Shown here piece by piece: positions 5,983 to 11,771 of a stretch of 12,377 nt of DNA. The first letter of the stretch is position 1; every line of letters starts with the position of its first letter. Source of the stretch: Nitrososphaerales archaeon TH526 (GTDB taxonomy: Archaea > Thermoproteota > Nitrososphaeria > Nitrososphaerales > Nitrososphaeraceae); contig JAATVR010000568.1 in assembly GCA_014523665.1 (NCBI GenBank), forward strand, positions 1 to 12,377, read 5' to 3'. The notes under the pieces were generated by a model. It was not told the origin of the DNA, made no database searches, and worked only from the letters and a program-made list of their open reading frames with translations. A program made the translations under genes and the position numbers.

Positions 5983-5995
5983 CCTTTTAATTTTG
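5983..5995 (+). promoter_or_regulatory. TATA-like box for the 6016 gene
   Basis: CCTTTTAATTTTG is centred about 28 bases upstream of the ATG at 6016. No purine-rich ribosome binding site precedes that ATG, which fits a leaderless archaeal mRNA. Confidence 0.35.
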
Positions 5996-6015: not shown

Positions 6016-6855
6016 ATGACAATACATTCAGAATTAGTACTATTCATTTGTCTTGCCTTTATTGTGGGTATCATTCTTGTAGCAAGTGGGAATACGTCCG
6101 TTAACTTATCTTCGGATATGTTTAATGGTTTGAAAGCTAAAATATTCGATAGAGGAATACTATCATCAAATCAAAGAGTCTGCGACTTTTACATCGATTC
6201 GGTTGGTTCCTATCCAGTTGGCTATGCTGGACTGGAGTTAATAAATTTGGAAAGTCCCAAATCGAGCTTCTCAATCTCAGATAAGATGGGGACAAGCAGT
6301 TTGAATCAGAATCCATTCCGCTTAATAGACATAAATTTAAATGTGTGCAAAATGAGTCTGAATCATCAAGTTAATAATATCATTATGGGAACTAATAACA
6401 TGTCTTCAATTATTGAAAAAATTAAGTACCGGCTAGACGCAAATGAGACATACCCTAAAGACGAACCGATTGTTATCAAGTTCACGTTAGAAAATAATTC
6501 AGAAGAAAATTTATGGATACTAAACTGGAATACGCCCCTAGAGGGTCTTAAGAATAGGATTCTAAACGTTATATGCGATGGAAAAGAAATTCCTTATGAG
6601 GGAATAATGATGAAGCGCGGGCAGCCCAGTAAGGAAGATTATGTGCAAATCACTCCCGGGAGTTCTATTTCTGCATCTGTTGATTTGTTAGAAGGTTATG
6701 CGATTCCCTTGGCAAACCAATGCAAGGTGGACTTTAAAGGTAGGATCCTTGACATTTCGACCAATGACGAATCAATTCCGAAGAAAGTTGAGGACTTTGA
6801 GTTGTTACCAAAGATAACTGGTAACGCTACTACTTTTCGGGTAAGTCCTTTGTAA
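6016..6855 (+). CDS. Exported stand-alone M35 propeptide-like domain protein
   Basis: 279 residues. Residues 6-25 form a hydrophobic segment (VLFICLAFIVGIILVASG), so the protein is secreted or membrane-anchored. Residues about 30-130 match nothing I recognise. Residues about 131-277 align along their length with residues 11-155 of the M35 metalloprotease encoded at 8929-10005. Shared landmarks are LxNNSxxxLxxLxW, PxEG, GxExxxYxGxxMKR, DY, DLxExY, RxLD and a final strand near FELL. In M35 enzymes this N-terminal beta-rich region precedes the protease domain and is removed as a propeptide in secreted members. Here the gene stops exactly where the shared domain ends, with no HExxH. It could inhibit, fold or tether the protease, or have lost its catalytic half; no M35 remnant was recognised downstream, which argues against recent truncation. 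The domain match is visible; the role is inference. Confidence 0.8.
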   Translation: MTIHSELVLFICLAFIVGIILVASGNTSVNLSSDMFNGLKAKIFDRGILSSNQRVCDFYIDSVGSYPVGYAGLELINLESPKSSFSISDKMGTSSLNQNPFRLIDINLNVCKMSLNHQVNNIIMGTNNMSSIIEKIKYRLDANETYPKDEPIVIKFTLENNSEENLWILNWNTPLEGLKNRILNVICDGKEIPYEGIMMKRGQPSKEDYVQITPGSSISASVDLLEGYAIPLANQCKVDFKGRILDISTNDESIPKKVEDFELLPKITGNATTFRVSPL

Positions 6856-6944
6856 TTAGTCTATAGCGTTCTGTGGACCTAATGCATTCTATTCGTGTTA
6901 ATGCTCGTTAGAATATTGATTAAAGGAGGAGTATTAGGTGTTAA

Positions 6945-7157
6945 GTTGACAACGTTGTTTCGTTTGAAAGCCTGAGAGAAATATCAAATAACAATTGTTG
7001 CATCTATACATTTTTGGTAATAGCCGTCTTCTATGTTGGTGTTATGTTCAAAATTGATATGTTAGGAATTACCGGAGCAAAGACAAAATTGAACTCAGAC
7101 CTGCCAAAAGCAAGTGAAACTCAGGAATGGGTATGTATAGTTTTAAGAAGGCGGTAA
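6945..7157 (+). pseudogene. Possible small membrane protein with damaged start
   Basis: A strong AAGGAGGAG (6923-6931) lies seven bases before a GTG (6938) that reaches a stop after three codons. One base away in phase, a frame without stops runs from 6945 to 7157 and encodes about 70 residues with a hydrophobic segment (IYTFLVIAVFYVGVMF) and a polar tail (TGAKTKLNSDLPKASETQ). It has no ATG at its beginning. One lost or gained base would connect the ribosome binding site, the GTG and the frame. It could be a small membrane protein damaged by an indel, or chance. Its position between the exported domain protein and the M28 peptidase is the reason to note it. Confidence 0.25.
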
Positions 7158-7401
7158 AGCCTATGTTCTATCATTACTACTAATTTATCTCTGAAATATC
7201 GACGGATTAATCCATTAATAATCAATTACTACTACTGGATCCCCCATTGAAGCCTAAGTGGTAAGGATTATCGGTGCTCCTAATACAGCGAAGATAAATA
7301 TAATGAGAACCATGACCTCACAACGTAACGCATTGTCATTATACCTCCATAGATATTGGAAGTGATGCCCTTGTGACCAACTCAGTACTAATCATTAAAT
7401 G
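7158..7401. other. Spacer without recognised features
   Basis: No gene, RNA or repeat can be supported between the doubtful small frame ending at 7157 and the M28 promoter. Together with the frame at 6945 it makes up most of the 585-bp gap after the exported domain protein. Confidence 0.4.
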
Positions 7402-7410
7402 TTTATATAA
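7402..7410 (+). promoter_or_regulatory. TATA box of the M28 peptidase gene
   Basis: TTTATATAA, a near-consensus archaeal box A, is centred 35 bases upstream of the ATG at 7441. Transcription would start around 7431, giving a leader of roughly ten bases without a Shine-Dalgarno sequence. The gene therefore has its own promoter and does not depend on the 6016 gene. Confidence 0.6.
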
Positions 7411-7440
7411 AATTCCTATTATCTGTTCGTCTGAGGTTAT

Positions 7441-8415
7441 ATGTGCAAAGAGAATTTGAAGCGATATCCAATCCCAGATAAGACTATGACGGTGTATGTG
7501 AAGCCAGTCGCTTCTAAAGTGCCTAAAGTCGCAATTGACGATAGAGTCAAAGCCTTACTATCCGATGTATCAACAGACTCTATCAAATCCAAACTACATA
7601 AATTATCATCTTATCATACAAGGCATACCAAGTCAAAATATATCCATGAGGTTGCTCAGTGGTTAAGGAGTGAATTTGAGTCTATGGGATACAATGATCT
7701 ATTTTACCATAAGTACAACGAAAATATAGATGGTACTGACTATGAATTGAAAAATGTAATATGTAATAAAAAAGGTAGAAATAATAAGTGGGTTCTTATT
7801 TGTGCGCATTACGACTCTAGGATGGAGCGTATTGATGATCATACCTCGAGCGCTCCGGGAGCAAATGATAATGCAAGTGGCGTGGGCGCCATTTTGGAGA
7901 TAGCTAGGTTGCTCCGACAGGTTGATCTAGAATATGGTGTTCAGTTTGCACTTTTCTCTGGCGAAGAGCAGGGATTGTTGGGTTCAAAACATTACGCAAA
8001 GTTTGTCAAGGAAAATAATCTAAGTATTTATAGATTGATAAATCTAGATATGATTGGTTACCCCCAGTTGAATGCTGGGATAGTATTAATTGAAAAGGAC
8101 GACCATAGTGATCCTGCCCACAATCAAGTAAGTGGGAATGATGAGGACTCTATCGAGTTCGCAAGGATTATGGCAGACATGTCCTCTTACACTGACTTGA
8201 AGATCAGTTTGGATTCAATTTGGAATAGCGACTACGAACCTTTTGAAGCCGAAGGATACGTTGTTGTTGGAGCTTACGACGGTTCAGCAAATGAGGATCA
8301 AAATCCCCATTACCACGACTCTAGTGATACACCTTCCTTAATAGACTGGACGTATTTAACATCAGTCACAAAATTGGTAATGGCTACTGTCCTAACTGTT
8401 TCCAAAATTCGTTGA
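7441..8415 (+). CDS. M28 family zinc metallopeptidase (aminopeptidase-like)
   Basis: 324 residues covering a complete M28 catalytic domain, which typically binds two zinc ions and removes N-terminal residues from peptides. All expected active-site positions are present: H123 and D125 in CAHYDSR, bridging D143 in GANDNASG, catalytic E175 and ligand E176 in FSGEEQGLLGSKHYA, D203 in NLDMIGY, and H292 in HYHDSSDT. Residues 45-90 match the helix that usually precedes the core (WLRSEFESMGY). There is an insertion of about eight residues between H123 and D143 compared with the Streptomyces enzyme. No signal peptide or membrane segment is seen, although many relatives are secreted, so the enzyme is cytosolic or exported by an unrecognised route. 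It may trim peptides made by the convergent M35 endopeptidase; that link rests on proximity only. The substrate residue preference is not readable. Confidence 0.93.
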   Translation: MCKENLKRYPIPDKTMTVYVKPVASKVPKVAIDDRVKALLSDVSTDSIKSKLHKLSSYHTRHTKSKYIHEVAQWLRSEFESMGYNDLFYHKYNENIDGTDYELKNVICNKKGRNNKWVLICAHYDSRMERIDDHTSSAPGANDNASGVGAILEIARLLRQVDLEYGVQFALFSGEEQGLLGSKHYAKFVKENNLSIYRLINLDMIGYPQLNAGIVLIEKDDHSDPAHNQVSGNDEDSIEFARIMADMSSYTDLKISLDSIWNSDYEPFEAEGYVVVGAYDGSANEDQNPHYHDSSDTPSLIDWTYLTSVTKLVMATVLTVSKIR

Positions 8416-8903
8416 GTCTTATGTACTTAATAAGCTGCCAAATTCTGTTATTGACCGTTAGAGCCTAGCCGTACCGTCTTTGGACACCACTTAGATACTG
8501 GCATTAAGTAACTAACTTTCATCTTCATAGGAAGAAATGTTAATGGAGTTCCATAGAATAACTGTGTTAGCCTTTTTCAATTAGCGTAAGATAACATCTG
8601 CACCAGAAATGTAGTTAATGGTGGGTTTCTTGAGTTATAATCCCAAAGTAAGCTCTAACATTGAAACATCAAAAAGTACATGTTATAGGTTAAAGGAAAT
8701 CATCTAGCAAAGGCACTTTTATACTGAAAGACATAGTGATGGCTAACATGACAGTCAAAGCAAAAAAAACAAAATAGCAACGTCTCACTTAACCCAACTG
8801 GTTCACTTGTATTAGACCAAGTTTCACAAACTCAGTTCGTTATCTAAAAATTAATTTAATATCTAATGATCCTTCGTTAATGTGTGCGATATTATAAACT
8901 AAA
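8416..8903. other. Spacer between convergent protease genes
   Basis: About 490 bases separate the M28 stop from the terminator-like hairpin of the M35 gene. No reading frame, RNA gene, repeat or clear T-tract for the M28 transcript was identified. Confidence 0.5.
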
Positions 8904-8927
8904 CTATTTTTAAAAAAATAAAAATAG
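8904..8927 (-). terminator. Hairpin terminator of the M35 gene
   Basis: CTATTTTTA (8904-8912) and TAAAAATAG (8919-8927) form a perfect 9-bp inverted repeat around six A residues, beginning one base after the M35 stop codon. In the minus-strand transcript the loop and 3' arm are U- and A-rich. It could act on both strands and also stop read-through from the M28 side. Confidence 0.6.
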
Positions 8928-8928
8928 G

Positions 8929-10005
8929 TCACATAGGAAGCTCTGGTGTATTTTCTGCAAAATACTCGTGGCTATCAGCATTGGCTATAGCCTCTTCTGG
9001 ACTATTTATTGCAAGCTGCCTACAAGCACTTTGACCATAAACATTATCATCAGTTCCTGCGACAACATTAAAGTGACTTAACTCATGTACTATCGTTCCA
9101 GCCCTAGAATCTGTTCCTGTCAGTTCAGCATTCCAAAATGCACTACATAAGAAAATCTCATAAGGTCGAGCAGGGTAAACGTATGCAAACACTCCATCTC
9201 GACAATCCTCCATCGAACAATTAAATATTATCTGTTTTGTTGTAAGTGCGTCTACTATATTTTTGTAATCTGCTAAAACCCGAGCGTAGTTTTGCTGTGT
9301 GTACTTGCCAAACCACTCTTTATAGCGGAGTGCCTCAGCAGGGTTAGCTTGTTCAGCTCCTGACAGGACACTTAGTGCTTCCTTTGCAATAGTCTCTGCC
9401 GCTTCTTTTGCTTGATCCAGCTCATTCCTTTGATTGGTGTTGCAGGCGCGAAATTCTGAAATTTTAGCAGCACTAGCCATCAATGCTCTCCACTTTGAAT
9501 CGACTCCCCCCACCTGCTTGGGAGATCTATCTTCCAAAAGTTCAAATTCAGCAATGTTTGAGCGAAGTTTCAGCGATTGGAACTCACGTGTATCATCCAA
9601 TCTTTTAGCTAAAGTTTTTGGTTCCTGTGTTCCCACATCCAATACTCGAGTATCGAGTTCAACAGTGTACTTACCAGCCTTCGAAATATTATATGCCTCG
9701 GAAAGATCAAAATCAGTTTCAATCGATTCTTGTGGATCCATAGTGATATAGTCGTGAGGTTTTGGAGCCGCTCGTTTCATCACCTTCCCAAGATACACTT
9801 CAACTTCTTCCCCTCTTTTTACCCAAAACGGATCACAATCCCACATACCTTCAATAGGTAATTGCCACTTTAACACATTCAGGGTTCGGTCCGAATTGTT
9901 AGTTAAAATTACTCGACAATCCTGCCCATCGTGTGATTGATATCGGCTGCTGCTCAATTCTATTTTTGCGGAAAGAGGCGTTGAACCTTCAGTATTATTT
10001 GACAT
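8929..10005 (-). CDS. M35 (aspzincin) metalloendopeptidase, predicted to cleave before Lys
   Basis: 358 residues. Residues 11-155 are the N-terminal beta-rich propeptide-like domain, 156-170 a linker, and 171-358 the protease. The zinc site is complete: HELSH (H307, E308, H311) and GTDDNVYG with third ligand D320 and Y323. D344 and E347 in NADSHEYFAEN sit at the spacing of the Asp/Glu pair that gives the Grifola frondosa enzyme GfMEP its preference for lysine at P1'. C188, C263, C268 and C287 match the family's two disulfides, with YAYVYP and IFLCSAFWNAELTGTDSRAGT nearby. These cysteines suggest an extracellular enzyme, yet there is no signal peptide, and an in-frame stop lies just upstream of the start. 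The ATG at 10005 has a TATA box 27 bases upstream, so it is probably leaderless. Such proteins are better known from fungi and bacteria, so horizontal transfer is plausible. The same N-terminal domain stands alone in the protein at 6016. Confidence 0.95.
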   Translation of the reverse strand: MSNNTEGSTPLSAKIELSSSRYQSHDGQDCRVILTNNSDRTLNVLKWQLPIEGMWDCDPFWVKRGEEVEVYLGKVMKRAAPKPHDYITMDPQESIETDFDLSEAYNISKAGKYTVELDTRVLDVGTQEPKTLAKRLDDTREFQSLKLRSNIAEFELLEDRSPKQVGGVDSKWRALMASAAKISEFRACNTNQRNELDQAKEAAETIAKEALSVLSGAEQANPAEALRYKEWFGKYTQQNYARVLADYKNIVDALTTKQIIFNCSMEDCRDGVFAYVYPARPYEIFLCSAFWNAELTGTDSRAGTIVHELSHFNVVAGTDDNVYGQSACRQLAINSPEEAIANADSHEYFAENTPELPM

Positions 10006-10027
10006 AAAGATTTTCTTAATACATTAC

Positions 10028-10035
10028 TATATAAA
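10028..10035 (-). promoter_or_regulatory. TATA box of the M35 gene
   Basis: The minus strand reads TTTATATA, a near-perfect box A centred 27 bases upstream of the ATG at 10005. Transcription would begin at or within a base or two of the start codon, so the mRNA should be leaderless. Confidence 0.6.
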
Positions 10036-10321
10036 CTTGATCTTCCATCCCTGAAGTCATGATAGAAACAGTCAGACAAATTAGATTTAGTGCCTATCAT
10101 GAAAGTTCTTTTCGAAGTTCACTTGAAAACCAGTAGCCTCTTTAATCTCTTATGCCGTAAATTAGTTCGCAACATAGATCCTCTTCTCCCACTAAGGACT
10201 CGCCCCACTATTATTCTGATTCTCCTCCACGAATTAATTAGGATTACATCGTTACGAGATCTTCATACTAATTATTTTTTACCGTTGCATAAATGAACTC
10301 ACCTTTCCTTTACCAGCTTAA

Positions 10322-10346: not shown

Positions 10347-10533
10347 ATTATTCATGCAATTACCTTATACTTGGAATATTTAGAATTAGATCTTCTCCCT
10401 TCTCTAGGAGCCGCTGGGTGTGCGCCTCAATGTGGAACCTAATAGTATGACATCTATCATGTCAATTATAAAGTATAACATGTATTTATAACTCTCTTAT
10501 ATAACATTATTAGATAAGTGTTCTAGGTGTATA

Positions 10534-10625
10534 CCGTTGGACGGCCAAGAGGTCACCGAGGTAGAAGACGGGCGAGAATTTGGGCTAACCTGGCTCACTC
10601 TCCCAGGTTGAGTCGGTTAACTCAA
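10534..10625 (+). ncRNA. GC-rich island, possible structured RNA or gene fragment
   Basis: The 90 bases at 10534-10623 contain 52 G or C by hand count (58%), against strongly AT-rich flanks. Near the 3' end lie two hairpins: AACCTGG/CCAGGTT (10587-10593 with 10603-10609) and TTGAGT/ACTCAA (10608-10613 with 10620-10625). They are adjacent and share two bases. Such GC islands in AT-rich archaea often mark structured RNAs, but I do not recognise RNase P, SRP, 5S or tRNA motifs. The stretch can also be read as protein (IPLDGQEVTEVEDGREFGL) up to a TGA at 10610-10612, so a fragment of a foreign gene is an alternative. Strand is uncertain. Confidence 0.3.
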
Positions 10626-10756
10626 AATAATATGAAAATGAAATTATAATTCACGGTCAATGGTTTTTACTTGGTGCTGAGTTCCGTTTGTAGTAGTAGT
10701 TCGGCAAGTATCGTAAACTCGTAGTCAACCGGCTAAGGTAAAAGGTGAGGGGAATC

Positions 10757-10915
10757 TTGGAATATCCACATACTCATCCACATACTCATGAATATTCAAT
10801 TATAATTGAAGGTACCCTTTCAATTTCACTATCAGGTTTAGCAAAACCATTTGTTTCAGCAGCGGTGGTGAAGTTGGCATCGGGGCCAGATGGGTTGGAC
10901 ATTCAGATTTGGTAA
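10757..10915 (+). CDS. Possible His-rich small protein, 52 aa
   Basis: A frame of 52 codons from a TTG at 10757, preceded by AAAGGTGAGGGG (10741-10752), a good match to an archaeal Shine-Dalgarno. A GTG at 10745 inside that site is the alternative start. The N-terminus is PHTHPHTHEY, coded by two exact tandem copies of a 12-base unit (10764-10787), and could bind metal. The rest is beta-like (YSIIIEGTLSISLSG, then KPFVSAAVVKLASGPDG) and ends in DIQIW. No family is recognised. Frames this short are expected by chance, so the ribosome binding site and the amino acid pattern are the only support. It may be the surviving piece of a longer gene. Confidence 0.3.
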   Translation: MEYPHTHPHTHEYSIIIEGTLSISLSGLAKPFVSAAVVKLASGPDGLDIQIW

Positions 10916-11771
10916 CTAAATATTGGGTCTTATAACACCAAAACCAGCACCACTGCTTCATCGATTGGGAACATTAACTCAACAGAATCAACGTTGATAT
11001 TACTCCTTCGCTCCTTCCAATTCCATGTTGGAAAATAATTCACTATTTCTCCCTTGTTATCATCTAGAGATAAACCTCTATGTGATTAATTATCTGTCAT
11101 GTTGTTATTTCAAATGACTCAATCATCTGGATATTGAGATAGGCCTACAGTCAGTACTTAAAGATTAGTCTTCATATACGGGGTATCAATTCCTAGTGTC
11201 ATATTTGTACTATTGTAATAGGTGTGTAAAGCTATCTCTGAGATTATTTTTGACAGATTTACCTAGGTTATCTCGTTTATGTACAAGTATTTTCAAACAA
11301 ATTTTACATTCTTAAGAATTCCTGATAATACAAGTCCGGAGACTATTTCATGGCAAACTCATTAATTTAAAGATCGGACTTTCAGCAGACATAAAGAAGT
11401 TATGTAGGCTTATACAACCTAAAAATTCTACCTCGTCAATTATTTCTAATAATGATATAATTTAGTAGGTGAACATTGTATCATAGAGTTCATATAACCT
11501 TTCTATGAAATATCTACGAGTAGATTGTGTACGTACGACTAAGTCAAAAGACATAAGGGCAACAACAGTAGGAACAAACTCGCAGTAACAGCAAGGTTCT
11601 ATACCCGTAGTAACAGAACCTAATTCACTTAAGCTTATCAGCATAACTGAATTAAATCATGGCATTGATACGATCACGGCATCAAAGTTAGAAATGACAA
11701 AATAATTTAAGGGCGAAGACTGAATAGTGAAGTAACAAGTCTTAATTCTTTATTATACAACAAATCAAAAG

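Follow-up and report, generated by a model that had tools for sequence, protein, structure and literature searches.

The window analysed here, a 12,377-nt contig of the soil-type Nitrososphaerales archaeon TH526 (contig C452 of genome G000, an assembly of 4.9 Mb in 833 contigs), encodes a protein with a predicted export signal (6016-6855, forward strand) that is a detached member of the pro-domain family of M35 (aspzincin) metallo-endopeptidases, and also a complete M35 protease (8929-10005, reverse strand). The stand-alone domain is homologous to the pro-domain of the protease, matches in fold the pro-domain of the crystallised M35 enzyme AsaP1, is paired recurrently with M35 genes in other genomes, and in some relatives stands in a type VI secretion layout. 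The 6016-6855 gene probably encodes a trans-acting inhibitor, or immunity protein, of M35 metallo-endopeptidases, a reading that rests on sequence comparison.

A detached pro-domain with its own export signal

BLASTP aligns residues 158-276 of the stand-alone protein with residues 34-156 of the M35 protein (33% identity, E 9e-17), and a domain profile spans residues 131-277 of the former and 10-158 of the latter, which bears out the end-to-end homology with the M35 N-terminal domain that an earlier note had read from this DNA for residues ~131-277. A six-frame search of the archaeon's own genome with the stand-alone protein matched the M35 gene at 4e-14. The motifs that the earlier note had listed as shared are real and family-wide: seven residues (Y194, G196, K200, R201, P204, D208 and Y228) each show a conservation of at least 0.95 both in 53 stand-alone domains and in 76 M35 domains, a set that takes in roughly half of the available M35 proteins, and the signature YxGxxxKRxxP, DY and Y228 is thus common to the stand-alone and covalent versions. 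By fold, the domain matches the pro-domain of AsaP1 (PDB 2x3a/b/c), and by homology to the M35 N-terminal domain the protein belongs to the M35 pro-domain family. None of the Pfam and NCBIfam models searched matches it, and NCBIfam likewise gave no match for the type VI partners tried. The features of the locus are as follows.

6016..6855, forward: stand-alone pro-domain gene, 279 amino acids (aa); its open reading frame (ORF) is full-length, at 60-62% identity, in the sister genome G002 (Nitrososphaerales archaeon TH5895)
6022..6090, forward: hydrophobic export signal or membrane anchor, residues 3-25 (helix in the AlphaFold2 (AF2) model; hydrophobicity 2.94)
6091..6405, forward: variable spacer, predicted disordered, residues 26-130 (predicted local distance difference test, pLDDT, <50 for residues 21-132; nonsynonymous divergence, dN, 0.40 and synonymous divergence, dS, 0.80 for residues 31-128)
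6406..6846, forward: pro-domain-like beta-sandwich, residues 131-277 (BLASTP, profile and fold match; dN 0.15, dS 0.77)
6613-6618, forward: KR signature in the beta-sandwich
6574-6576 and 6721-6723, forward: Cys187 and Cys236, candidate disulfide
8929..10005, reverse: M35 (aspzincin) metallo-endopeptidase gene, 358 aa, signal peptide not seen (PF14521, Aspzincin_M35, 8.2e-46; AF2 pLDDT 92.5)
9532..9978, reverse: pro-domain of the M35 protein, residues 10-158 (BLASTP, PDB sequence match, profile)
8953..9351, reverse: M35 catalytic domain with HELSH and GTDDNVYG
10028..10035, reverse: TATA box TTTATATA, ending 22 nt upstream of the M35 start (counted by eye; also in the sister genome)
5985..5994, forward: putative weak AT-rich promoter-like stretch ahead of the stand-alone gene, judged from sequence
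7441..8415, forward: M28 peptidase gene, 324 aa (PF04389, Peptidase_M28, 2e-37), a neighbour outside the recurring pair

The three ORFs thus lie as first described. The AF2 model of the stand-alone protein comprises a helix (residues 3-25), disorder (~26-132) and a beta-sandwich (~135-277), so that the ~100 extra residues seen at the outset correspond to the disordered spacer. The best 19-residue hydrophobicity mean within the first 60 residues is 2.94 for the stand-alone protein and 0.03 for the M35 protein, in keeping with the original observation of a hydrophobic signal on the one and none on the other; by the same measure five stand-alone proteins score 1.3 to 2.9 and five related M35 proteins -0.2 to 0.3. 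Among 45 stand-alone sequences, Cys187 is accompanied by Cys236 in 24 and by a cysteine three residues earlier in 5, and 16 have neither, an association that the Fisher p overstates as the sequences are related; position 236 is Tyr in 97% of M35 pro-domains. This pattern points to a candidate Cys187-Cys236 disulfide that may stabilise the detached domain outside the cell.

When 5.8 billion proteins were searched with a profile, under a length rule that restricted the search to short proteins, 41 relatives of stand-alone length emerged (93 to 300 residues, some possibly partial), none with a precomputed Pfam domain. Cytoplasmic forms, as suggested by signal-less short copies (e.g., P0131-P0136), were not used as evidence, because the P0130 and P0150 entries are shorter than their source frames and miss the signal.

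The archaeal M35 protease

The 8929-10005 product carries, after an N-terminal domain of ~150 residues, an Aspzincin catalytic domain (PF14521, 156.4 bits, cut-off 30) with the zinc-site motifs HELSH (HExxH) and GTDDNVYG (GTxDxxYG). PMC12924839 gives GTXDXXYG as the third-ligand motif. In a sequence search of the PDB the whole protein, pro-domain included, aligns with the AsaP1 entries 2x3a/b/c at E 3e-59. No export signal was seen by hydrophobicity in its first 60 residues. In both genomes 22 nt separate the TTTATATA box from the start codon, as in leaderless archaeal transcripts, which makes a missed upstream start unlikely. Among the matches listed for the window's phylum, at least 1 of 398 genomes exceeds the PF14521 cut-off; G002 was not one of those matches.

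The pair recurs in bacteria

Three loci, in TH5895, Moorena sp. SIO3I8 and Pseudoduganella flava, were found when genome contigs were scanned with the stand-alone alignment. The Moorena protein has a lipoprotein-type signal and lies ~2 kb downstream of the end of an M35 gene, and in P. flava the M35 gene and an exported stand-alone copy are convergent and 22 nt apart. Bacterial genomes were then sampled with a profile built from both kinds of domain, which matched 13 of 369 genomes of the P. flava class, 12 of 398 in the phylum that contains it, 15 of 109 in the order to which G800 belongs and, among 292 Cyanobacteria (the Moorena phylum), Moorena only; these sets overlap, and G800 and G704 were taken as Arenicella species.

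The loci of all matches, together with L020, were classified with custom profiles. A separate stand-alone copy was present in 19 genomes of three bacterial samples (G448, G571, G704, G802, G800, G591, G706, G753, G1415, G1441, G1485, G1322, G1523, G1525, G1527, G1529, G1521, G1528 and G1531), and in 16 of them the domain edge was within ~310 nt of the edge of an M35 frame, a count that keeps in its denominator the doubtful copy of G753 (L068; E 9e-6, end branch 7.7). The opposite pattern, stand-alone copies sitting mostly in genomes that lack M35, is therefore not what is seen. Two further candidates were dropped as stand-alone copies: L057 (G461) seems to be a further M35 in tandem, broken up by unknown bases, and L102 (G1423) looks like one M35 split over two overlapping frames.

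With M35 frames measured between stop codons and the starts of the stand-alone genes picked by hand, the spacing of the two genes ranged at nine loci from a 43-nt overlap to a 127-nt gap; copies that come after M35 overlap it by 4 nt (L060) or 1 nt (L065). Records of Pseudoalteromonas (L021, annotated) and Aeromonas caviae, from outside the samples, also have the pair. One A. caviae record (L025, NZ_AP026896.1; 4.94 Mb, 18 annotated features) is listed as a plasmid, and its size suggests a mislabelled chromosome. At 43 M35 loci a separate copy was found at 21, a fused copy at 3 and none at 19, several of these last being cut by a contig end; the stand-alone gene therefore depends on M35 more than the reverse. 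The fused loci (L064:4445-7150, L066:4424-6739 and L067:4698-7061) are single frames of pro-domain, M35 domain and a second pro-domain-like copy, which lies at the C-terminal end, after an apparent membrane-spanning sorting tail (by eye) and a lipoprotein-like signal; export signals of bacterial copies were likewise judged by eye. Relatives were encoded by none of 22 pattern-matching stretches of viral contigs, one query against phages gave no match, and two records of Streptomyces plasmids carry M35 with no stand-alone copy in the stretches read.

M35 effectors in type VI clusters

At L101 (G1322) a VgrG gene (Phage_GPD 9e-74), an M35 gene and a stand-alone copy follow one another on one strand. 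The M35 protein, of 186 residues, has neither signal nor pro-domain (PF14521 36.8 bits, cut-off 30), and the copy, which begins 3 nt after it, has 219 residues, a signal peptide (by eye) and the domain at E 3e-10 to 5e-10. This gene order is that of a type VI effector-immunity pair, and a signal on the partner with none on the effector fits immunity to a neighbour's effector, not a folding helper. The pair was sought in E. coli genomes without a match.

In Cronobacter pESA3, a VgrG with a C-terminal M35 domain (1.1e-11) is followed by a copy (9e-10 to 3e-9) to which an upstream in-frame start would add a signal peptide. E. coli KE48 has the order PAAR, VgrG, a gene annotated as peptidase M35 and then a weakly similar partner, and its M35 gene and first partner recur in 135 of 5426 E. 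coli genomes, Nissle 1917 and ATCC 25922 among them. Two weakly domain-like proteins are encoded on the KE48 plasmid (L119:6016-6699 and 7104-7889), behind VgrG and the peptidase M35 gene. Thus VgrG, PAAR or Rhs genes stand beside an M35 effector in the relatives L101 and L118 and, more weakly, L119; no such gene was found among 10 of the 11 ORFs of at least 80 aa in the window, which was not classed as a type VI locus.

Archaeal loci and their surroundings

Within the Nitrososphaeraceae the stand-alone domain was found in 2 of 70 genomes, and these two also have M35; among 61 genomes of relatives both proteins again occurred in the same two genomes, which are not independent since they belong to one genus. 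In the sister genome (locus L014) the genes are divergent neighbours ~320 nt apart, the stand-alone gene at 9341-10201 on the reverse strand and M35 at 10522-11598 on the forward strand. The TH526 genome itself has a further contig (C455, L015) with a broken stand-alone gene, a broken M28 gene and only the start of an M35 gene, and no second PF14521 match was found in this genome; these copies decayed together, a single event and as such weak evidence.

An earlier suggestion that the M28 enzyme between the two genes is a third member of the system is not supported. It does not lie between them in the sister genome, and no M28 gene was seen near the pair at L021 (annotated) or L101 (ORFs judged by eye), the two bacterial loci examined gene by gene. 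The recurring pair does not include the M28 enzyme.

Peptidase genes without obvious signal peptides (by eye) form islands in the window (7441-10005), at L014:1622-11598 (G002:C499) and at L015:2620-9098. The sister-genome island holds two M28, an M43 and an M35 gene; that of C455 holds (by eye) a broken M28 gene, an M14-like piece, a tyrosinase gene and S8-like ORFs. A 91-aa tyrosinase fragment at 1734-2009 of the window matches the end of PF00264 just under its cut-off, and longer tyrosinase ORFs are present on G000:C455 (by eye) and G002:C515. A small protein encoded at 2106-2423 of the window is 85% identical over 97 aligned residues to that of L014:4460-4753 in the other archaeal island, and neither has a Pfam match over cut-off. 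A low-complexity ORF rich in Ser, Asp and Asn (46-507) opens the contig.

Contractile-sheath genes occur at L123:3748-5349 (G000:C375) and, in G002, at L124:3194-4771 and L125:2695-3798, on contigs that also carry tyrosinase, PLD-like (L124) and M64 peptidase (L125) genes. Of five genomes of the genus, exactly the two with the pair (G000 and G002) have them and the other three do not, a weak co-occurrence (2/2 against 0/3). For the one sheath tested against PDB sequences, the closest was 8bky, named only as a phage tail sheath, and those of Afp and Pvc, which are injection systems, scored well above pyocin. No other part of a contractile system was seen in the 10 ORFs scanned of 18 listed on the sheath contigs.

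Origin and selection

In a tree of 135 domains, which has few columns and many open forks and from which about half of the M35 rows of the protein search were omitted to limit its size, the stand-alone domain of the window clusters with Moorena and others in a 37-member group of stand-alone proteins (support 81), and the pro-domain of its M35 neighbour falls in a separate M35 group. After removal of the L068 and L057 rows, approximately unbiased (AU) tests rejected a clade of the archaeal stand-alone and M35 domains (p=1.1e-5, quick tree), and hence the idea that the archaeal copy arose by local duplication. A single clade of all stand-alone and fused domains was not rejected (AU p=0.76), the constrained tree scoring 15 log units above that of the free quick search. 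Between G000 and TH5895, dN and dS are 0.15 and 0.77 for the domain, 0.40 and 0.80 for the spacer (residues 31-128), and 0.12 and 0.67 for M35. The stand-alone domain is under purifying selection, and the spacer evolves faster than the domain.

Proposed role and alternatives

As in stand-alone propeptide-type inhibitors, the gene is separate, lacks a protease domain and is linked to a protease gene. From its features we infer binding to the enzyme, inhibition and a site of action for the archaeal enzyme: held outside the membrane by its N-terminal anchor, the detached domain would bind and block the catalytic domain of M35, much as the covalent pro-domain presumably does in the zymogen. M35 would thereby be kept inactive at the cell surface, and the producer's own surface would be protected from its own M35 or a neighbour's. 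Binding in the manner of the pro-domain is the simplest reading because the signature is the same in both versions, and inhibition is the most likely role because the two-gene pairing recurs beside M35 in very different bacteria, including type VI clusters.

Several observations weigh against inhibition. The archaeal M35 protein lacks an export signal and its partner is anchored outside, and most M35 proteins at hand carry their own pro-domain. The AF2 model of the M35 protein differs from the 2x3c crystal by 17.8 Å over 272 residues, so the domain arrangement is not reproduced. Among the bacteria, the order of G800 was sampled because G800 had the pair, and the copies of G753 (doubtful), G1485 and G1529 have no M35 in the stretch read, that of G1529 having an M35 gene on another contig. 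The KE48 partner matches weakly (1e-3 or 0.22, depending on the profile), and the M35 beside it (24.8 bits) is under the Pfam cut-off. Finally, the type VI copies have lost the KR signature, and their contact may differ; either K and R are not the inhibitory contact or these copies bind differently.

Of the three roles offered at the outset, that of inhibitor gained strong comparative support from the 16 of 19 genomes and from the copies that follow M35 effectors without a pro-domain in type VI loci, and that of chaperone lost ground at L101. Propeptides of many proteases aid folding, as the available part of PMC6993865 states for most subtilases, and the close or overlapping genes fit co-production of a folding chaperone acting in trans; most partner M35s, however, already have their own pro-domain, and at L101 a signal-less M35 without a pro-domain and a copy with a signal would fold in different compartments, which makes this role quite unlikely. 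The third role, a surface receptor or anchor that holds M35 or its zymogen at the cell surface, draws on the membrane anchor and disordered spacer of the archaeal copy and on the lipoprotein-type signals of several bacterial copies (by eye), but leaves the VgrG effector loci unexplained, and in the fused loci, L060 and L065 the proteases seem to have their own C-terminal sorting sequence (by eye); we give it a comparably low probability.

That the gene is a remnant without a role, a duplicated M35 that lost its catalytic domain, would accord with the broken copy on G000:C455 and the apparent tandem duplication at L057, yet it is made very improbable by the purifying selection that acts on the domain, by the existence of 41 family members of stand-alone length and by the deep separation from archaeal M35 pro-domains. 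Just as little probability attaches to a generic Ig-like adhesion or binding domain, adjacent to M35 because of a shared substrate and not through contact with the enzyme. The archaeal M35 could possibly leave the cell by lysis or through a contractile device. A fuller scheme, in which the archaeon has a self/non-self system whose signal-less M35 leaves by such a route to attack neighbours, with the anchored pro-domain as immunity protein and an immunity fold common to archaea and bacteria against secreted and type VI-delivered M35, is speculative and, in our estimate, rather unlikely.

Comparison with known systems

Among the matches listed in mostly open-access literature, titles and the starts of abstracts do not describe a stand-alone M35 pro-domain, no search having been aimed at M35 type VI effectors; 'M35' does not appear in the available portions of PMC6838775 and PMC6833914, nor does an M35 partner in those of PMC11985622 and PMC12924839. 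BsuPI (PF12690; the B. subtilis intracellular proteinase inhibitor, 3isy) was absent from the 11 Pfam families matched by 45 stand-alone members at E up to 10, a negative qualified by the HMMER filters, which drop most matches above E ~0.1. According to part of PMC3901451, BsuPI is reported to be ineffective on metallopeptidases and its family has been removed from MEROPS.

In AsaP1, an M35 zymogen of Aeromonas, the pro-domain is covalent, whereas here it is a separate protein with a predicted anchor, a long spacer and a candidate disulfide. The AsaP1 propeptide reportedly inhibits the AsaP1 enzyme. This kind of protein is already known, since detached propeptide-like inhibitors exist for subtilases: SUB1-ProM, the Pleurotus peptidase A inhibitor 1 and the yeast peptidase B inhibitor (MEROPS I9) are likewise detached. 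The SUB1-ProM gene adjoins subtilisin-like genes (PMC6993865, in part). The subtilase inhibitors, however, concern another protease class and fold and their inhibition has been measured, whereas here it is predicted. Should the proposed role be right, subtilase-style inhibition by a detached propeptide would extend to the metallopeptidase family of the toxic protease AsaP1, hypothetical proteins that form an unnamed family in archaea and several groups of bacteria would gain a probable function, and a genetically encoded inhibitor would become a candidate for a family that includes the lysine-specific enzymes of proteomics. It would also link the M35 pro-domain to type VI immunity. The established type VI pairs Tpe1-Tpi1 and VgrG2b-PA0261 place a metallopeptidase beside an envelope-located partner, as here, and their immunity proteins occur in versions with a signal peptide, a lipoprotein signal or a membrane helix, with disulfide formation of importance (PMC6899460, in part). 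The likeness to these pairs is one of design, and no type VI genes were found among the window ORFs scanned.

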